Shown here piece by piece: positions 4,171 through 44,621 of a DNA stretch of 62,324 bases (position 1 is the first letter of the stretch; every line of letters starts with the position of its first letter). Source of the DNA: an uncultured Candidatus Saccharibacteria bacterium (GTDB taxonomy: Bacteria > Patescibacteriota > Saccharimonadia > Saccharimonadales > Saccharimonadaceae); NCBI GenBank assembly GCA_937859515.1, contig CALMAK010000014.1:1-62324 (forward strand), read 5' to 3'. The notes below the pieces were generated by a model. It ran no database searches. It had not been told where the DNA came from and saw nothing but the letters and a program-made list of their open reading frames with translations. Both the position numbers and the translations under genes were made by a program.

Positions 4171-6690
4171 TTAACGAGCGAGTGCTCTACGCCCAAACCA
4201 CTTGTGAATCTCAACAAGAATGATTGGTATCATGAAGGCGATAGCACCAGTGATAATGAGGTCACCAATGGCGACGCCTGGAGCAATATGGAGGAGGCTT
4301 TGCAGCGGCCCGAAGATGGCAAGAAGCTGCAAAAAGACTGATGCACCGAGGCCAACGTAGAAAGGAGTGCTCCATACGAAGAGACGACGGAACACCGACT
4401 CGTAATCCGACCTCGCATTAAAAGCACTAGCCCACTGCATAACAACTAAAGCACAAAATGCAATGGTACGGCCATACTCGTGTCCGTAGAGGCTACTAAA
4501 GATGATGTAAAGGGTGAGCGTGGTAGCGGCCATACTGATAGCAACCATGACCATACGTGAAACGAGATAACGATTGAGAATGGGTGCATTTGGCTTTTCT
4601 GGCTTACGTGTCATGCTGTTCTTCTCGCCTTTTTCAAGGCCAAGTGGAATGACCATTGTCGTATCGGTGACAAGGTTTACCCAAAGGATTTGCACCGCGA
4701 CAAGAGGAACGGGCATGCCAATAAGCAGTGCGCCAACCATCGTTAAGACTTCACCAGTGTTAGTTGCAAGGAGGTAGTACAGCATGCGACGAACATTGCT
4801 GATAATAGTACGGCCTTCGCGCATTGCATCAATAATGGTCTTGAAGTTATCGTCCAGAAGGATAATATCGCCAGCGTCTTTGGCGATTTGAGAACCCGAT
4901 CCCATGGCAATACCGACGTGTGCATTAGAAAGCGCAGGGACATCGTTAACGCCGTCACCAGTCATAGCAGTAATATTGTGACGTTTGAGGATGGACAGTA
5001 AACGATACTTGTTTTCTGGAATAACACGTGAGAAGACGCGAGTATTTTGAATTGCTTCAGCCAGCTCGTCATCGGTCATCATATCCATACGCCGGCTATC
5101 GAATACCTGATCGCGTGATTGCACCATGCCCATTTGTTTACCGATATGATAGGCAGTCTCAAAGTGATCACCTGTCACCATACGCACCGTGACGCCTGCA
5201 GCAAGCGCAGCATTAATAGCACGCTTTGCTTCGGGACGAAGTGTATCTGCTACAGCAATAAGACCGACAAAATCAAATCGAGCCTTGACTGGAAGGCTGG
5301 CGAGAGATTCGATCGGCTTCTTTAGTTCGGTTTGCGCGAGTGCTATGACTCGATAGCCTTGGGATGTGAGTTTCGCCAGTGCTTGCTCGGACTCTTCCCT
5401 TTCAGATTCGGTGAGGATTGACCGAGCGATAATAGTCTCGGGCGCACCCTTGACGGTCAAGCGGTACTGATTGCCATGATGCCAAAGATTACCACTCATG
5501 GCATGATCGTGACTGAACGGAAGCGTGTGCAGAGGCTCTCCTTTCAACTTGACGATCTTCTCGGCATCAGCATATTCGACCATAGCAATATCAAGAGGGT
5601 CATGTGTTTTTGTAGCAGAATGATTTGCGCTATGACGGATTGAGGTTGGCAGATGATGCTTGATCCAGTCAGGTTGCCAGATCTCCTGAACAGATAACTT
5701 ATTCTTTGTGAGAGTGCCAGTTTTATCTGTCGCAATAGTTGTAATGACGCCAATTGTCTCAATGGCGCGCATATTAGTAACTAGTGCTTTTTTTGCTGCC
5801 ATGCGGCGCATGCCGAGGACAAGGACGACCGAAATTGCGATTGGAAGGCTTTCGGGAACCGCGCTCACCGACAGCGCCATAACGAAACGAATCGCCTCAA
5901 TAAGATCAGTGCCTCGAATGAGTGACAGTACTAATGTGATGGTGGCGACACCGCCAATGGCGGCAATAATTTGGTTGACCAGTTTATCGATTTTCTTCTG
6001 AACAGGACTACGAATACCCGTTTGTTCAGACAAAGCTGCAAGACGGCCGAATTCAGTATCGTTGCCCGTACGGACAACGACGGCAGTTGCCTCACCTGAA
6101 ATAACGAAGGATCCCTGAAAGAGAAGATTTGATTGTTCGTAGATTTGTTTTTCACCACGTAAGGTATCGCTTGTTTTTGTAATTGCCTCCGATTCGCCTG
6201 TTAACAGTGCTTCGTCGAAACGAACGTTGCTGCCATCAAGTAGCCTGGCATCAGCAGGAACCTTCTCGCCTTCACCCAGCACAATGATATCGCCAGGTAC
6301 GAGCTTGAGGGAATCGACAGTACGCACCTTGCCGTCTCTAATAACAGAAACAGATTGCGCAGTGTGTTTTTGCAAGCTGCGCAGTACTCTGTCGGTTGAA
6401 AAACGCTGAACATAGTAAATGACGGCACTGATTAACATGATGCCAATGATAATAATGGCATCAATTGCGGCATGATGAACGATACTCAATGCAGCTGCAA
6501 TGAACAACACGAGCATGAAGATGTTGGCAAATGGTTCAATGATTTTACGCCATAGTGGTTCGCCTTTGATGCGAATGGTGTTTGGCCCATACGTAGCGAG
6601 CCGCTTATTCGCCTCAGTAGGGTGTAATCCTGCTGGTGACGAATTGAGTTCTTTGAGAGTTGCAGTTGTGGATTTATTATAATAAAGCAT
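4171..6690 (-). CDS. P-type cation-transporting ATPase, SERCA/PMR-like calcium pump family
   Basis: A second, unrelated P-type ATPase (839 aa) of the larger type II family. It has an N-terminal cation-ATPase domain (LHPTEANKRLATYGPN), TGES (164-167), a PES segment replacing PEG in helix 4 (SAVPESLP), DKTGTLT (Asp322), an MTGDH element, GDGVND (578-583) and a C-terminal set of six helices. PEx-type helix 4 and a full-length C-terminal transmembrane domain are typical of Ca2+ or other divalent cation pumps, but the ion is unknown. The ATG at 6690 is chosen over an upstream frame opening at 6720, because 6720 lies inside the greA terminator and a TATAAT box (6698-6703) sits 7 nt before 6690, giving a leaderless mRNA. 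Confidence 0.9.
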   Translation of the reverse strand: MLYYNKSTTATLKELNSSPAGLHPTEANKRLATYGPNTIRIKGEPLWRKIIEPFANIFMLVLFIAAALSIVHHAAIDAIIIIGIMLISAVIYYVQRFSTDRVLRSLQKHTAQSVSVIRDGKVRTVDSLKLVPGDIIVLGEGEKVPADARLLDGSNVRFDEALLTGESEAITKTSDTLRGEKQIYEQSNLLFQGSFVISGEATAVVVRTGNDTEFGRLAALSEQTGIRSPVQKKIDKLVNQIIAAIGGVATITLVLSLIRGTDLIEAIRFVMALSVSAVPESLPIAISVVLVLGMRRMAAKKALVTNMRAIETIGVITTIATDKTGTLTKNKLSVQEIWQPDWIKHHLPTSIRHSANHSATKTHDPLDIAMVEYADAEKIVKLKGEPLHTLPFSHDHAMSGNLWHHGNQYRLTVKGAPETIIARSILTESEREESEQALAKLTSQGYRVIALAQTELKKPIESLASLPVKARFDFVGLIAVADTLRPEAKRAINAALAAGVTVRMVTGDHFETAYHIGKQMGMVQSRDQVFDSRRMDMMTDDELAEAIQNTRVFSRVIPENKYRLLSILKRHNITAMTGDGVNDVPALSNAHVGIAMGSGSQIAKDAGDIILLDDNFKTIIDAMREGRTIISNVRRMLYYLLATNTGEVLTMVGALLIGMPVPLVAVQILWVNLVTDTTMVIPLGLEKGEKNSMTRKPEKPNAPILNRYLVSRMVMVAISMAATTLTLYIIFSSLYGHEYGRTIAFCALVVMQWASAFNARSDYESVFRRLFVWSTPFYVGLGASVFLQLLAIFGPLQSLLHIAPGVAIGDLIITGAIAFMIPIILVEIHKWFGRRALAR

Positions 6691-35149: not shown

Positions 35150-36055
35150 TTAGATTTTCTTGCGCTCCTCAAGCGTCTTACGTTCCTCTTCAATTCTATC
35201 CTGCTCACGTAGTATCGCATCGATCCCAGCCACCATAACCTCTATTACCTTGCGCTGATCCTCATGCGGCAACTTATCCATTTCGCTCAAGAGCGCAACC
35301 AATACGTTTCCATATGCTACGTTGAGATCGGGATGCATATACTCTTCGTCGAGTACTAGACCCAAGAACTCATCAGATATATTAAGCGCCTCACCCGGAA
35401 CCCAACCATTTAGGTCAACTAGTCTACGCCTATATGCCCTTAGCGCGTCCTTGGTCGTATCATCTATCGAATGCCGATTGGCGTACTGCATATCGAGCTC
35501 CACTTCCTTTGAATCGGGTACATATAGGACAGCTGTGGGAGCGCCCAGCCCATCGAAAATCTCATCCCACGGAGCAACGACAGGAAAATCCCCTCCTATC
35601 CACTGACCACTTTCATGTGATATAAGATCTACACTTTTGAATATCGTATCCACAAACTGATGAAATGAGATCACTGGAAGCGGCTTGCCCTCGCCGCCAA
35701 TCTTCGTTGGTACGTAGTATTTTAGCCAAGTTACCGGAATAAGCGGCGGCGCGGCTCGAATCACCTCAAGTGCTCGTGCAACCCTGTCACCAAGAGCATC
35801 TGGCCTCAAGCCAAATAGAGCTGGCCAGTAGCTGTCGTTATTCTCCAGATCAAACCTAAGCGTACTCTCAAATAACTCATCTTGCTTTTGCTTAATTTCC
35901 TGCGGATTAATACGCCAAGTTAAGCCATCAATAACCTCGTCGTCTAAGTGACGTCGTAAATACCCTCTAAGCTCCAATGGTAACTCCACACCATAGACAC
36001 TCTCAATGTTGCGTAGTGCATCCTCGTCAGTGGGTCGTCTTTTTCTAAATATCAT
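35150..36055 (-). CDS. SMI1/KNR4 (SUKH-like) family protein, probable immunity protein
   Basis: A 301-aa cytosolic protein. The central block is characteristic of the long SMI1/KNR4-type proteins next to polymorphic toxins: YWPALFGLRP, then AALEV-like helix and PPLIPVTWLKYYVP, then the PVISFHQFVDTIFKSVDL strand-helix. The N-terminus (ESVYGVELPLELRGYLRR) matches the usual opening of SUKH domains. The C-terminal 40 residues form a charged coiled coil (REQDRIEEERKTLEERK). It is last in a string of small genes downstream of the RHS gene and may protect against a toxin tail not present here. Confidence 0.6.
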   Translation of the reverse strand: MIFRKRRPTDEDALRNIESVYGVELPLELRGYLRRHLDDEVIDGLTWRINPQEIKQKQDELFESTLRFDLENNDSYWPALFGLRPDALGDRVARALEVIRAAPPLIPVTWLKYYVPTKIGGEGKPLPVISFHQFVDTIFKSVDLISHESGQWIGGDFPVVAPWDEIFDGLGAPTAVLYVPDSKEVELDMQYANRHSIDDTTKDALRAYRRRLVDLNGWVPGEALNISDEFLGLVLDEEYMHPDLNVAYGNVLVALLSEMDKLPHEDQRKVIEVMVAGIDAILREQDRIEEERKTLEERKKI

Positions 36056-36134: not shown

Positions 36135-36479
36135 TTAACCTCTTAACTCTTCAAGGCACCGTCTCGCAACAACCCGCACGGCTTCCCATTCCGGGTCGTC
36201 GATCATAAGCTCGGGAGAAGGTAAACTCGAGCTATGCGATGGATAGGCATCAAGCGCATCAATTAGCTTATAGCACGCTTCTTTCTGAGATTCGGTTAGT
36301 CCGTTCTCTTTTAGTTTTAAAAAGTCCTCGAAGATAAAATCATAAAGGAGGATAGCATACACCTCTTCAGGAGAGGAGACTTTATCGCTTAGCCCAAACC
36401 AAGCAGTACGCTGAAAGTCTTCATCGGCTATGTCTTCTATTGCTTCTATGATGTTCTTTTTCCAGAATGTACTATCCAT
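36135..36479 (-). CDS. SCO4402-like small acidic protein, probable immunity protein
   Basis: A 114-aa protein, all-alpha by appearance, with no membrane segment. The pattern WKKNIIEAIEDIADEDFQRTAW, an aromatic AILLYDFIFED segment, a Leu-rich middle helix and DPEWEAVRVVARRCLEEL at the end matches the SCO4402 family layout (a small immunity-like family common in actinobacteria). It sits among toxin-locus genes, which supports the idea; the toxin it would neutralise is not known. Confidence 0.5.
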   Translation of the reverse strand: MDSTFWKKNIIEAIEDIADEDFQRTAWFGLSDKVSSPEEVYAILLYDFIFEDFLKLKENGLTESQKEACYKLIDALDAYPSHSSSLPSPELMIDDPEWEAVRVVARRCLEELRG

Positions 36480-36590: not shown

Positions 36591-36911
36591 TTAAATATCG
36601 ACATCGTCGAGCTGCAGATGTATATTATCATGCTCACGTATCATATCAATAATCACACGATACAGTCCTCCTGCACTATCGTCAAGAATGATTGATTTAT
36701 CCCTATTTAGTCTTTTCTTACTTTTTTGGTTATTTTTCCAGATAATTGTGACTTCCTCTCCCTCTTCGAAGCCAATAACACCTCCGTAGAGGACATCATC
36801 TAGTCTATCGAGTCCAGATACTGGAAATGTGGTATTGAACTGCTGGTAGAGCTCACGCACAAAGCCTTCATAATCCTTAAAGGCTCGTCCATCTATCTCA
36901 AATACTTTCAA
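36591..36911 (-). CDS. barstar-like RNase inhibitor, probable immunity protein
   Basis: A 106-aa protein that reads like barstar: an opening strand FEIDGRAFKDYEGFVREL, then FPVSGLDRLDDVLYGGV, the counterpart of the barstar helix that plugs a ribonuclease active site (YGxNLDALxDxL), then the strand VTIIWKNNQKS and a final helix-strand ending HLQLDD. Barstar proteins block barnase-type RNase toxins. No such RNase tail is present in the adjacent RHS gene, so this looks like an orphan antidote kept in the array. Confidence 0.6.
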   Translation of the reverse strand: MKVFEIDGRAFKDYEGFVRELYQQFNTTFPVSGLDRLDDVLYGGVIGFEEGEEVTIIWKNNQKSKKRLNRDKSIILDDSAGGLYRVIIDMIREHDNIHLQLDDVDI

Positions 36912-37050: not shown

Positions 37051-37362
37051 TTAGTCCAGAGGATTCTCGTAAGACTTGCTCTCTTCTTCTAGCGACTCCT
37101 TGTATTCATGGTACCACTCCACATAAGACTTGTTGTTGTATAATAGTGAGTCTTTTGTGTCTTGAGGCAGATCGGCCATAGACAAGCTATTAAACAGGTC
37201 TGATAGGCTCGGACTTGACTCTATGATGACTTGATTATCCCCATCAAAGTATGTCGTATGCGCCCATAGGCTCGCCTCCGCCGGAGCTAGCAAGCCAGCA
37301 ATAAGCTGTCTCATTGTTTGCTCGGCCTCATTGCGTAAAATTTCTTGTCTATGTGATATCAT
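37051..37362 (-). CDS. unknown 103-residue protein in the immunity array
   Basis: Not recognised. It is a soluble acidic protein without cysteines or membrane segments; the N-terminal half is helical (RNEAEQTMRQLIAGLLAP), and the C-terminus is aromatic and acidic (YVEWYHEYKESLEEESKSYENP). Size, charge and position among small genes behind an RHS toxin suggest an immunity protein of an unlisted family. A modest AGGGATG-type ribosome binding site lies upstream of the ATG at 37362. Confidence 0.45.
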   Translation of the reverse strand: MISHRQEILRNEAEQTMRQLIAGLLAPAEASLWAHTTYFDGDNQVIIESSPSLSDLFNSLSMADLPQDTKDSLLYNNKSYVEWYHEYKESLEEESKSYENPLD

Positions 37363-37400: not shown

Positions 37401-37802
37401 TTACGGTTTGAGTTCCCTGGCTCTACTAAAATCGTACAGTCTCTCGGGCAGCTCACCACTATCTTGTCCTGCTAAGTAATCAACACGAACAGATGTACCA
37501 TAGAACTCGTCAGTTGACGTATTCACAGCACTAACTTGCCATCCATCAACTCCCTGCATACTAGGTGGTGACGAAACAGTAACCTCGAGATTATTACAAA
37601 ACTCTCGTGACTTTCCATCGTCCAGGCAACGATTCAGTAAATAGAGATGGCCTGCATATTGCGCGCGTAGTTGAGGGATTTTGGTAACTTCATCAGAATA
37701 TTTATTAAAACAATAGATTGCGACTGCCAAGAATCCTACCGATACTAGAGCAAGGGCTGTAATGGTAATTTGATATTTATTCAGTCCACGTTTGGTTGAC
37801 AT
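37401..37802 (-). CDS. single-pass membrane protein, tandem immunity paralogue 1
   Basis: A 133-aa protein with an N-in signal anchor: basic residues (STKRGLNK), a 23-residue hydrophobic helix (about 12-34), then an exported domain holding two cysteines ([11 protein letters not shown], residues about 59-69) that could form a disulfide. Residues 1-72 are identical to the next copy at 37877; the remaining 61 are only about half identical. The layout matches colicin-M immunity proteins (Cmi), which are anchored the same way with a periplasmic domain. It lies 75 nt downstream of copy 2 and shares its ribosome binding region. Confidence 0.6.
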   Translation of the reverse strand: MSTKRGLNKYQITITALALVSVGFLAVAIYCFNKYSDEVTKIPQLRAQYAGHLYLLNRCLDDGKSREFCNNLEVTVSSPPSMQGVDGWQVSAVNTSTDEFYGTSVRVDYLAGQDSGELPERLYDFSRARELKP

Positions 37803-37830
37803 AGTATACTCCTTCGAAGTTCATTGTGTA
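37588..37830. repeat. 243-bp near-identical tandem repeat, copy 1
   Basis: It appears identical to 38064-38306 (offset 476 nt). It covers the N-terminal half of paralogue 1, its ribosome binding site and about 25 nt matching the last codons of the RHS gene, a scar showing that the duplication unit included the toxin 3' end. Confidence 0.85.
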
Positions 37831-37876
37831 GTCTCATCGACGATTCCAAGGTTGAGCTTTGGATCTTATATTATAA

Positions 37877-38278
37877 TCACTCTCGCTGCTGGGAATCTCG
37901 ACCGAAATCCGAAAATCCTCTGGGAAGTTCATCGAATTTTTGCCCAGGCAGATAATCAACACGAACAGATATACCGTAGAACTCATCAGTTGCGGTATTT
38001 GCAGCACTAACTAGCCACCCATCAACTCCATGCACACCAGATGAGTGCCAGACACTAACATTAAGATTATTACAAAACTCTCGTGACTTTCCATCGTCCA
38101 GGCAACGATTCAGTAAATAGAGATGGCCTGCATATTGCGCGCGTAGTTGAGGGATTTTGGTAACTTCATCAGAATATTTATTAAAACAATAGATTGCGAC
38201 TGCCAAGAATCCTACCGATACTAGAGCAAGGGCTGTAATGGTAATTTGATATTTATTCAGTCCACGTTTGGTTGACAT
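37877..38278 (-). CDS. single-pass membrane protein, tandem immunity paralogue 2 (overlaps RHS gene)
   Basis: A 133-aa paralogue of the gene at 37401, with the same anchor helix and cysteine pair, and a diverged exported C-terminal part from residue 73 on ([10 protein letters not shown] against EVTVSSPPSM). Its start codon lies inside the last codons of the 2122-residue RHS gene, a 26-nt overlap, with the ribosome binding site GAAGGAG inside the toxin coding sequence. That tight coupling is the usual place for the cognate immunity gene, so this is the best antidote candidate for the adjacent toxin tail. The exported domain suggests that the toxin acts outside the cytoplasmic membrane. Confidence 0.65.
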
Positions 38279-38306
38279 AGTATACTCCTTCGAAGTTCAT
38301 TGTGTA
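38064..38306. repeat. 243-bp near-identical tandem repeat, copy 2
   Basis: The partner of 37588-37830. The identity stops abruptly on both sides, which suggests a recent duplication or gene conversion. Confidence 0.85.
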
Positions 38307-41300
38307 ATCATTTGGTGAGATACCGCCATGCGACCAAGTTTGCACAGCCACGCCAGAAGCAAGACCAGCACGAGTTGAGAACTCGCCAGCATTACTTCTA
38401 CTACCCCAGGGCTTTGGATCAAAATTGTAGCTGTTTGGGTATATACTGTAAGCACCTTGAGCCCTGTAAGTATTTCCTGTTTTTGTTACAACTCCATGAA
38501 ATGTTCCGCTTACTCCGCCAACATGAGCACCGCCATTAAAACCTTGCGCCCCCGCACCGATATTAGCTATCGTCACTGCACCTTTCGAGGCGCTCTTCAT
38601 TAGCCTATCAGTACTCAAGTCCAGCCGAAGCGTAGAGGCTTTAATTGTCATACTCTTCCCGCCGCCGAACAACCAATGTAAATACCCGCCAGCCGCATTC
38701 GGAGCCCCTGGCTTCGGCGTGACAACACGAGGGCCTGTCATAATTCTCAAGTTACTTAGGAGCCCCTTCAGATTAATGAACTGTCCGCTCAAATCCCACT
38801 GATTCACCGGATCCATGGCATACACATAGTTATTGAGTGTACCGCCTTCAATCGGGTCTACTGATGTGAAGCGTCCAAGCTCTGGGATGTATACTCTGGC
38901 ACCCATCTGGATGATGCCCGTCGCGAGAGATGATTCAGTAATCTTATGGTACTTGCCGACGTAACCATAGGTTGTGTCAGTGGTGGCATTAGCGGGATTT
39001 GCCGAGATAGTATTCTCAAGCACTTCACCAAACGGCCCAGTGATATAGGTACCAGTCAACACACCATCGGCATCGACTGTTGCCATTGTATCACCGTGGA
39101 TGTTGGAGAGGCTATAGGTAGTGGCGCCGGCGCTGGTGCTTTGGGGGTTGAGCTTGACGTTGATTCCGCCGGGGAGCGAGAGGTATTTGGCAATCACCGT
39201 GTCGCTGCTGTCCAGGATAGCAGCCGGCGACGATGAGCTGCCAGTGTACACGTGCTTTTCGTGCGAAGTTGTCGAACTGCCATCTGTCGATACGCGCCCG
39301 ATAATACGGTCAGTGACGTCGCGGGTATACTCAACACGCTTGGCGCCTTCTTGGATTACTGTGTTTCGATCACTGACATCATATTCTAATTGGGTTTGCG
39401 TGCTACCCGTGCCGAGAGTGACAGTGTTGCCATGGCTGTCATACGTCGGCGTGCTGAATCGCGAGTCCGAGCTATCGACCAAGCGATCAGCATAGTCGTA
39501 GCAATAGGTCGTAGTCTGGCTATTTTTGATGAGTTTGGTGCGGTTACTATTTTTGGCGGCATTTGGATTAGTGCCAGATATGGCGTTACACGTTATATCT
39601 GGGGCGCCGAACTCATAGGTAAAAGTGTCGTCACCAATCGTAGCTTGTGTCAAACGACCAGCTTTGTCATAAGTGTATGACTTACTCACGCCGTTCTCTA
39701 GGCCACTAGTGATGATGCCGCTGACCGAACGGGTAATCTCGTCAGTAACGTACTCGTCACCCACCTTGTAGGTTACTTTGTTAACTCTATCGAGTGCATC
39801 GCGCTGTGCTGGCTCAAGCGAAAGTCCGGCTGGATATTGTATCGATTGCACGCGGCCATAGGCGTCATGCGTAATCGTCGCAAAAGTGATGCCGTCAAGC
39901 TTGTAAGTAGTCGGCCGGTCATAGGTATCGTAGGCATAGGTTTCCGTACCCAAGACACTTGTGCGGGCTAGTAACTTGCCGTACGTGTCATATGAGCTGG
40001 TCGTTACGGATCCTGTAGCATCGGTGTATTCAAGGATACGCCCCAAGAGATCCGTTTTTGTCGTAACGGTGCCATTTTCATCTGAAATACTGGTGACGAA
40101 TGGATCACCGCCAACGTCGTAGGCATTCGTAATCGTACGCGCCGGTTTGCTGCCGCGAGCTGGGATAGACGTTTCTACCGTGCGACCACGAACATCATAC
40201 GTAGTGCATGTCCATGCATCCTGATTAAAGCGACTAGCTATAACCCTGCCGGCATGATCGTATACCGTTTCACTGGTGCGACCTACCTGTGGTCCGTTGC
40301 CGTCCGGGTCGGCTTCAACTTTCCCCTTTGGCCGACCGCCCTGGTGAATAGCCTCAACCTCACTAGTGCACGGATTATCTCGTGTTTCAGTGGCACCGTA
40401 ATGTTGATATGTCGTCGTGCCGCCACCAGGTAATGTCTTGTTAGTTTGGCGCAGGAATCCTGTACCAGGGGCCTCATATACCGCCTGATTCTCGTAATTG
40501 AGCCCGGCTGGATCGACAACGGTCTTGTCTACGAGGCCATAGGCAGGGTCGTCATACACCGTCTTTGATTCAGAGTCGCCGATCTGAGCATCATAGATTT
40601 TTGTGCTTGTCGATAAGTTGTAGCCCGGCTTCAGATATGCAGACCAATCACGAGTACCTGTCCCATCGCCCATACTGTCTGGAACGCCCGCGCCCTTCAC
40701 GGCTAGCGCAAACCTTCCTTTTGTGTTGCCGTCATACCCATAACGCAGTTCAAATTTATATGATTTACCGGCCGTTGCAGCGAATGTACCTGTGTACATG
40801 TTTGTTACATCATTGGCAGTTTTTGTACCCCAGTTGCTCACCACTTGTTTATTATCGATAAAGAGAGCAATGCTATCATCACTATGGATAGTAACTGTGT
40901 AGGTGGCAGTTTGTGGCATAGTAACTTTGCCGGTAGCAATCATTCCGTAACCGGTTACGCCATTGGTTGACCCAACGGTGATAGGTAGTGATTGCGTGCC
41001 ATAGACATGCCGTAAATAGGCGGGATTACCGTTCTCTGGGGCACCATTGCTAGCAAAACCTGTCGTATGAAGTTTGGGCGCTCCTGAGAATGACATAGTA
41101 GCACCTTTCAGGTCATACCATGATACGGCGGGACCCTTTAGATTTTCGTCATACTTTGTCTGTGTGCGCGGGGTGTTGGCAGCATGCGCAGCCAGCGGTT
41201 TGTTATCACTGCCAAACCACGCGGACGGAGCGGCGCCATAGCTGTCTACAGGAAGATCGTCTTCGTTATAGATAGTTGTAGATTTTAGTCCGGTCGGGTC

Positions 41301-44300
41301 GGTTACCGATAAAACAAGATCCTTGTCTGCGTGCCATTGGGTGGTAGTCGTAAGGTTCGCCACGTTAGTATCGCTTATGGTGCGAAAGAGGCTATCGTAG
41401 GCGATCTTACGAGAAAAGCCATGTGGCTCCGCAGCGCCAACGACATGGAAGGCGGTGGCCCCAGAGAGATAGTCGGTGGTAACTTCTTGACGTCCTGCAC
41501 CGGTGGTTGCCGCAGGCGCTTTGACGCTAGTAACTTTACCAGACACATTATAGTTAATTTCTGTTCTTGTACTCGCATCATCCGAGCGCACACCATAGGC
41601 GACTGCATCATTCGCAAGGGTATCGCGGTAGGTGATTATACGCCCGAGGCTATCATATTGATAATCTTCATACGTGTCCCCAGGCTGTGCAATACGCGCT
41701 AAGTTGCCATTTTTATACTGGAAAGTTGTTTTATCTCCATCGGTCGTCTTGAATGCGCACAGATATCCAGCAGGTACCGCGTCAAAGGTACTCATCACTT
41801 GACACTCACTACTACCGGAGTAGTAGAGGGTACCATTACGCGCTGCATTAACCCCATCAGATATCTTTGCAAGACGAGATAATCCGTCATATTCATATTT
41901 TAGGGCAGCCGGTTGCCGATCGTCCTGAGGTGAGGTCACGGAAGTGAGTCTACCTTCAGGATTAAATATGTAAGTCCTTCCATCCGTATCGATAACAGTG
42001 TGCGTTCCATCATTATTGCGAATAAGTGATGCCTCGGTGCCCTTGGGCGGTGTATAGGTACCACTCTTCCACGTGTACTCATATTTCTGTCCCGTACTGT
42101 CGAATAAAATCGCCGTACTGCTTGATACTTGGATTCTCTCATAGTTTACTCCGCCACTGCCTTGCGCAAGTTCCCACCCGTCAGGTAACACATTAGCATT
42201 AGGCGCAAGCCATGTTGTTGGTATCTCTTGCTCGGCCAAGCCCGTAGCCTTAATGAGTGTTTTAAATGACGCTCCACCTGCATCTTCAACATATTCTATC
42301 TTGATACGAGTTGGCTGGTTAGCAGTTAGGGTCCTTGCCGTTCCCCAGCGATTACCCGCCACGAAGTTCCAGCTATCAAGAGTCGTCTCGTACGCACCTC
42401 CAGACCCAGTGCCAACCCAGATGCGCGCACCGTCATCAGCACCTGCACCAAGAGTGTAGCTCTTTGTCTCTGGTACTGTGATATAGCCTTCCCAGCGAAC
42501 CAAGAACTTGTCGTCAGGTAGTCCAGGTGATGCAGCTCCACTACCCCAGTTAAAGTTTATTCTATTGTCGTTTCGTACCATTAGTAAGCGGTTAGGGTCT
42601 GAGGCATTAGAAGGAAACGCCCTACTACCGCTAGGGTCATTATAGTAGCGACCTATCAACCCGTACTTAGCGAGAGTTTTCTGTGCAGTACCAGAAGCCA
42701 CTAGGGCTGGTGTATTGTAATCCAACTTCAGGCCAATATCACCACCAAGTGCCGAGATGCTATGGGACCCCGTACTTGTTGTGGCATTGCCAGTTGCAAG
42801 ATCAACCGCTATTGGTCCGACCTCCTCATATGCTTGCGTGCTGTTTTTGCCTGTACGCAAATCTACCTTGAATGACCTCACCCAGTTTGGCGGCGTGTTC
42901 GGTGCATTTGTATTACCTCGAGTATACACGTGCCAATAGTAGGTGCGTCCGTCTTGAAGAATATGCTGAGGTATGGTGTATTGACGAGATGACTGCCAAC
43001 CTGAGTTGATTACCGCACCCGTCTCAGCATCAGAGTTTGTGGCAACACGGAAGTAATACTGTACGGCATCTCCATCAGCATCAGTAGCCGCATTAACCTG
43101 TAGTGTTGGCTGTGTAGAAACCGTCACCGACTTATCTGCCGGGGAGGATGGTACTGACATTTGAGTAGGGGTATCATAGGTGACTGTCACCTTCGTGTCG
43201 TAATACGGTTTATATGTATGAGCGCCCTGTTCCTGCCCTACAAGTACCCACCAGGAACCTAAGTCACCCGCACTGACACGCTCCTGCAGTTTGCCGGTAA
43301 ATGAGATATTGTAGTTAGTTGATGCATGTGCGTCTCCAGCCCAACTACCGTAGCAGTGGAACCCACTCGTGCATCCGGCATGACCAAGAGTCATAAGCGT
43401 AGTAACGTTTGTACCACCAACTCCGCTCTTATAAAAACCTTCCATATTCGCACTGATAATATTTTTTCCACTCAGTACATCGTAGTTAAAACGAATATAC
43501 GTTCGCCAGTGCTTCCAACCGCCATCATTGATCGAACCTGTACTGATATAGCAATTGGTTGCATTACACTGATAGCCATTCGATTTGATCATCTTGTATG
43601 AATAGCTAGCATCCCCTTGTCGAGTTAGTGTTGGATCAATTCGCATCGGAAATGCAGAGGCTGGCTGGCTCTTAAACCAACCTTCATCAAATGCAATCTG
43701 AATACCTGTGCTCGTCGGTACTTGTGCTATGCGCTCTTCATCAATAACACCACGACCATTTACATCAAGTGTTAATGCACTAAAGCTGTAGTCGTTGGGG
43801 AGACCTTTTATTGCAAGTTCACCCTTACGCTCTGGATGATAAACCACCTGACCGCCACTTACATTAAAGTCGAAGACAGTTGGAGCATTTTTATCCCGAA
43901 CAATAATGACTTCTTTTACAGACTCGCCTCGTAGTTCATACTCAATATCTACGTTCTTCCAGACATTACGGTAGATGACTGTCCGATCATCAACTCTCTC
44001 TGGCTGCACATCATTGGCGCCAACAGGTTTCACGACAATACTCTTGCCCTCAGCATCAACCTCTATACCTTGCGATAATTTCTTGATAGTACTAGACATA
44101 GCACCCGCCTTACCCTCAAAGAGACGGGTTCCATCAGCAGCTCTCTTTTGTTCAAGACGATTGTCTATATCCTTCCAGGCAGCGTCACCTTGCTTCTTGT
44201 AGTGTCTCTGGTCGGCTGTATACTCCAAGGTTTTTGTGCCGTCAGAGTTTAGGAAGGTCTTACCGTGTGAAGTTCGTTCACTAACCAGCTCTTTTACCGT

Positions 44301-44621
44301 ACTGCGCTTCGTCGCTTTATCTTTTGGTGGATCTAGCTCTTGCGCTTCAAGGAGAAACTGGTTGGTATCTTTTGTGTTCGGTAAAGTAATAGAAGGGTTA
44401 AGAGGGCTATTAAGTGCCTTGACATTGCTACGCTGTACTTCGGGTGGATTAAGTGCATTAAATAGCTGTAATGTCTGTGCAGGGTTAACAACGGCAAAGG
44501 CAATAAGTCCTGCCATTACAAAAAGACCGCCTTGCTGAAGGCGCTTCTTTGCACGAATATTCTTGCTTATTTTGGATGTAGATTTTTTGAATTGAATGCG
44601 AGAGTTCTTAAACGTCAGCAT
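38253..44621 (-). CDS. giant RHS/YD-repeat polymorphic toxin with PA14 modules
   Basis: A 2122-aa surface or secreted toxin. Order: basic N-terminus and one membrane helix (about 33-52), an RHS N-terminal region, a DNRLRE-like carbohydrate-binding stretch (about 335-490), an Fn3-like unit, PA14-like module 1 (about 650-790, YYNDP to RIWVGTG), a first YD-repeat block, PA14-like module 2 (about 1180-1310), a long YD-repeat shell with many GRL/YDxxGR units, and the core-associated end [11 protein letters not shown]...VNQWDLSGQ. After that comes a 175-residue variable tail from residue 1948, with YNFDP (Asp2068), Arg2075 and EFSTRAG near the end. YD shells encapsulate the tail and release it into target cells. 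The start is ATG 44621, behind GGAGAG and a short leader ORF. Confidence 0.92.

Follow-up and report, generated by a model that had tools for sequence, protein, structure and literature searches.

A predicted colicin M-type tail with an altered active-site motif on an Rhs polymorphic toxin of a probably host-dependent bacterium

The window, by which we mean the whole 62,324-nucleotide stretch of DNA analysed here, encodes an Rhs polymorphic toxin of 2122 aa as a single intact ORF on the minus strand (38253..44621). The protein contains RHS/YD repeats (PF05593), a GLEYA/PA14 region (residues 706-791, 42249..42506; Pfam), a PA14 domain (residues 1227-1300, 40722..40943; Pfam, E 1.3e-28) and an Rhs-associated core (residues 1863-1947, 38781..39035; TIGR03696, E 2e-14), the sole Rhs core detected in the 907-kb assembly. 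A hydrophobic segment near the N terminus (about residues 31-51, 44469..44531; hydropathy 1.76 at residue 33), located downstream of a basic stretch, may act as a Sec-type signal or anchor. Residues 108-406 (43404-44300) also gave a hit (E 6e-18) to a PHROG annotated as a virion structural protein. The core ends exactly at residue 1947, as does the DPxxxWDLSGQ-type junction (residues 1937-1947), and the remaining 175 residues (1948-2122, 38256..38780) form the toxin tail, the part of which homologous to colicin M (ColM) was placed at about residues 1978-2122 by hhalign with ColM profiles and by an AlphaFold2 (AF2) model with a PDB search. Within the tail, the motif stretch occupies residues 2061-2075 and is followed by GEFSTR (2079-2084) and by FEG in the last strand. 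The ORF, the tail length, FEG and the identity of Asp2068 as the D of YNFD are all as given in a preliminary description of this DNA.

The toxin gene is followed on the same strand by two putative immunity genes and an array of further candidates. The first 26 nt of the first gene (immunity 1, 133 aa, 37877..38278) lie within the end of the toxin gene. The second (immunity 2, 133 aa, 37401..37802) is located 476 bp beyond it, behind a 54-bp exact repeat of the toxin end; this remnant of the toxin 3' end (37777..37836) encodes the same 18 residues and stop. Over their first 71 codons the two immunity genes show no DNA difference, and the exported halves have diverged by 28 amino acid changes, with 47 nucleotide differences in changed codons vs 14 synonymous ones. 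The tandem copies (37401-38278) look like the result of a duplication or recombination by which an immunity allele belonging to a related toxin would have been imported. Both products have a single hydrophobic segment near residues 10-32 followed by approximately 100 residues, and are thus predicted to consist of one N-terminal membrane anchor and an exported domain. MurB-like proteins of relatives were rejected as matches to immunity 1, being partial, at about 26 bits and outside an immunity gene context. Farther along the minus strand lie a 103-aa ORF that is a possible immunity gene and falls in no family in Pfam/NCBIfam searches (37051..37362), an orphan barstar-family immunity gene (36591..36911; PF01337, above cut-off), an SCO4402-like gene that is likely an orphan immunity gene (36135..36479; E 1.6e-6, below the curated cut-off), and an orphan SUKH-like immunity gene (35150..36055) recognized by a profile match and by its product, which shares 48% identity across 164 residues with that of the gene immediately following an unrelated Rhs tail in locus L091. 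As in Rhs polymorphic toxin loci, a predicted immunity ORF lies directly downstream of the toxin, overlapping it, and an orphan array follows. The window appears to hold immunity to toxins that are no longer, or never were, made there. Neither the 54-bp repeat of the toxin end nor the array had been noticed in the preliminary description.

Of the 151 genomes of the family, 14 have the Rhs shell, counting that of the window, and core identity is about 43-56% among nearly complete matches. The tails carried on this shared shell are diverse and many are unrelated to each other, demonstrating tail swapping across the family. Genome G032 (L098:1-3183 and L093) contains a tandem set of several partial Rhs cores whose tails differ, arranged as orphan tail cassettes. 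At L085, L087/L096, L088 and L093/L097, Rhs tails of the family are followed by polytopic membrane proteins, suggesting that membrane-damaging tails are also found on the same shell.

The tail could not be assigned by standard searches. Residues 1948-2122 gave no match at a useful level in Pfam, NCBIfam or PHROGs and no toxin family, and single-sequence searches of the PDB and of plasmids returned nothing useful. The curated colicin M model PF14859, for which cma scores 514.9 bits as a control, did not match the tail, and nothing was above its cut-off in 153 phylum genomes, the window's own among them. Among the weak PDB matches, PaeM (E 0.35) was the earliest hint of ColM; those to GFP, antibodies and a sliding clamp were regarded as chance. 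Among 84,980 species genomes scanned, two Bacteroidota relatives of the tail, L017 and L018, were detected, and a search of 295 genomes from the order of L017's genome added L021 (DNYDFDSKEWGQRS). L017 and L018 have a 12-residue stretch in common. L017 is followed by a lipoprotein-like ORF; L018 (L018:5605-6135) starts with a lipobox-like signal, is devoid of an Rhs part and may represent either a standalone lipoprotein toxin or another use of the domain. No close relative of the tail was found in the other 379 sampled phylum genomes, the 380-genome search giving chance matches besides the window tail; the tail is rare. A sibling ColM-like tail, L081, occurs on the same Rhs shell in genome G1196 (AWLHGGGKKQTVKAS ... 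DRYDF ... DYSLDAVG) and is related both to the window tail (P 3.9e-7) and to ColM (94%). At L099:4416-4841 this second ColM-like Rhs tail, with its DRYDF intact, ends at 4416 and has its own anchored 133-aa neighbour.

The reference set for comparing the tail with the colicin M family comprised colicin M from the E. coli plasmid pSMS35_130, bacteriocins annotated as ColM-type in Klebsiella, Pantoea, Rahnella, Serratia and a Pseudomonas phage, and 22 loci taken from viral contigs. Scanning viral contigs with a degenerate DNA motif had yielded an unrelated phage protein. The tail by itself matched a profile of 22 ColM domains over 124 columns (P 5.9e-6) with a score of 38.3, vs 20.2 for the best of 120 column-shuffled ColM decoys, none of which (0/120) reached the real score. 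In hhalign, the tail and its three Bacteroidota-type relatives were aligned with six ColM domains at 94% (E 1.4e-7, 112 columns), and the pair formed by the tail and its sibling L081 was aligned with ColM at 97% (E 1.1e-10, 128 columns). The N-terminal part of the tail, which is matched to HYLWGNG..SV and excludes the motif noticed in the preliminary description, scored 33.0 vs 17.6 for the best decoy. The C-terminal part of the window tail was non-significant by itself, with 12/120 decoys as good, and the motif region was significant when compared via the Bacteroidota relatives (28.2 vs 20.3). Homology thus extends over the length of the ColM catalytic domain, and on these profile comparisons the tail is to be considered a distant homologue of it. 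With about 20% identity to colicin M and no curated family match, the tail might instead be an unrelated domain that resembles colicin M by chance. This is very improbable, as the profile scores are far above those of the decoys, two separate regions match in register and the sibling has the canonical DxYD. The colicin M-like character proposed in the preliminary description is thereby supported, and the profile search it had called for retrieved a ColM match outside the curated toxin families.

Structure prediction gave a compatible picture. AF2 run on three tail rows only (L021 was left out of the alignment) reached a pLDDT of 31.5, which rose to 71.2 after ColM rows from viral contigs were added. 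The latter model had 14 PDB matches at E < 0.001, all of them colicin-M-type and starting from 1.5e-7, with the next match at E ~1. DALI-like Z scores against ColM structures were 5.5-8.4 over 116-133 residues, compared to 3.1 for the first unrelated chain. The model had no fold match among viral structures. Because ColM sequences sit in the input alignment, these matches indicate consistency and are not independent evidence.

Alignment of the tail with ColM domains revealed an altered active-site motif at residues 2063-2075 (38397..38435, minus strand), N.YN.D......R in place of D.YD.....HR. The canonical DxYDx5HR is broken by Asn2063 in place of Asp226, Asn2066 in place of Asp229 and Ser2074 in place of His235, and two extra residues precede the Arg. 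Tyr2065 (Tyr228) and Arg2075 (Arg236) are kept, and G1986, G1988 and E2080 are likewise conserved. The loss of the first motif Asp to Asn had been overlooked in the preliminary description, which proposed Asp2068 as an active-site residue; the colicin M counterpart of this residue is Asn231 rather than the catalytic Asp. In the ColM set, 15/16 rows have Asn at position 231 and one has Asp. Colicin M requires D226, Y228, D229, H235 and R236, and its D226A, D226E and D226N variants are almost inactive (PMC8469651). Because D226N nearly inactivates colicin M, the active site of the window tail would be either shifted or dead.

The relatives of the tail bear on both possibilities. At positions 226, 229 and 231, L017 and L018 have D, N and D and L021 has D throughout, and the sibling L081 retains the DxYD lost in the window tail. 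The motifs can be arranged in a possible series from DxYDxN (ColM) through DxYDxD (L021 and a ColM-type domain from a viral contig, L067) and DxYNxD (L017 and L018) to NxYNxD (window), which hints that the metal-binding acid may have moved. The full reading of this series is tentative: the acid would have been relocated from 226 to 231, and the window tail would be an active hydrolase of polyprenyl-linked precursors in a host-dependent bacterium. Alternatively, this copy may have kept the ColM fold and be catalytically dead, a degenerating or decoy toxin retained with its immunity genes. The equivalents of D226, D229 and H235 are all lost, PmnH has an HxYD domain that is regarded as inactive (PMC8469651), and the first Asp is still present in the Bacteroidota relatives and the sibling. 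An intact ORF of 2122 codons, the upkeep of two immunity copies whose exported half diverges mainly by amino acid changes, and the Asp at 231 common to the window tail and all three Bacteroidota-type relatives speak against a dead copy, which we regard as unlikely. The divergent motif might also mean that the tail acts outside the membrane with a different lipid-linked substrate or without catalysis, as a pectocin M1 mutant inactive on lipid II may retain the ability to lyse cells from the periplasmic side (PMC5821083). We consider this improbable, as ColM homologues of known activity cleave lipid II and there is no sign of another substrate here.

The immunity genes point to the side of the membrane on which the tail would act. 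The L081 tail is followed, 23 nt downstream, by a 133-aa single-anchor protein with an exported domain and two Cys, so that both ColM-like tails directly precede a 133-aa protein with one anchor, an exported domain and two Cys. For 16 other tails on the same shell, the neighbour is cytosolic in 11 cases, polytopic in four and absent in one, and the type with an anchor and an exported domain was found in 0/16. The immunity proteins of the window and L081 loci have no detectable homology to each other, which makes their shared topology more telling, and no homology to Cmi-type proteins was found for them. The predicted topology at both loci fits immunity that acts from the membrane or outside it, and supports the earlier view that the target of the toxin is located outside the membrane.

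Taken together, we consider it rather probable that the locus encodes a polymorphic toxin-immunity system in which the ColM-homologous tail acts outside the membrane on a polyprenyl-linked wall precursor, and membrane-anchored immunity protects from it. The Rhs protein with its PA14 adhesion-type domains would be secreted and would deliver the C-terminal tail to a neighbouring, probably related, cell, where the tail would most likely act at the outer face of the cytoplasmic membrane, cleaving lipid II or a similar precursor as colicin M does; Asp2068 or another residue would compensate for the lost Asp226, and the two exported immunity proteins would protect the producer. Of the lipid-II-toxin interpretation advanced earlier, the ColM-like tail and the immunity arrangement stand, and precursor cleavage by this copy is hypothetical because of the Asp226 and Asp229 replacements by Asn, the first of which nearly abolishes activity in colicin M (PMC8469651). 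The tail is best described as a ColM-domain homologue with an altered site rather than as a lipid II hydrolase of the canonical type.

Judged by the linked immunity genes, the first candidates for the target are kin or self. The actinobacterial host cell might be the target instead. The 16S gene of the assembly contains, with 0 mismatch, what we take to be the target sequence of probe TM7-905, suggesting that this small, probably host-dependent bacterium belongs to the Saccharibacteria; cultured Saccharibacteria live on actinobacteria. Use of this probe for TM7 is documented (PMC3118805), and a title cited in PMC8469651 reports that colicin M hydrolyses the branched lipid II of Gram-positive bacteria. 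We nevertheless regard a toxin directed at the host as quite improbable, as an obligate epibiont is unlikely to kill its host at once, and competition among related producers is what linked, duplicated immunity genes with an orphan array usually signify.

The tail resembles colicin M (Cma, PF14859), PaeM, pectocin M and syringacin M in catalytic-domain homology (112-128 columns), with GxG, Tyr228, Arg236 and the following Glu shared, and in an anchored, exported immunity protein, here a predicted one. It differs from these TonB-dependent bacteriocins in being carried on an Rhs shell, in having NxYN...SR with the longer spacing before Arg instead of DxYD...HR, in escaping PF14859, and in immunity that is not of the YebF/Cmi type. 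DUF3289-DUF943 (PMC11148199), the pair of a T6SS colicin M homologue and its immunity protein, corresponds to what is predicted for the tail in having a ColM-fold toxin of contact-type delivery that is toxic in the periplasm, but its toxin is a proteobacterial effector to which the tail has no Pfam match. The lipobox polymorphic toxins with novel Colicin-M-like domains (PMC12419801), compared by description, combine a ColM-fold tip with membrane-anchored immunity, as predicted here, but have a cystatin-like carrier and BamE-like immunity; L018, with its lipobox-like start, may belong with them. TelC-TipC, a T7SS lipid II phosphatase and its immunity protein, is similar to the proposed role in that the toxin acts on lipid II outside the membrane, but TelC belongs to the lipocone superfamily (PMC12419801) rather than the ColM fold, and the PDB search with the tail gave no sequence match to it. 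A 2018 survey described the ColM family in proteobacterial bacteriocins (PMC5821083), and ColM folds were subsequently recognized in T6SS effectors and in lipobox toxins (PMC11148199, PMC12419801), so ColM domains as polymorphic toxin tips are already known. What is new here is the Rhs carrier in this lineage, the reach past PF14859, the altered motif and a natural sibling pair for tests of catalysis. With a DxYD sibling and an NxYN copy on the same shell, the metal-binding residue of ColM-fold enzymes becomes directly testable. The relocated-site reading, if true, would mean an active polyprenyl-precursor hydrolase with a moved active site in a host-dependent bacterium. A ColM-type tip on the Rhs protein of a reduced-genome bacterium hints that such bacteria may attack the envelope of their neighbours from outside.
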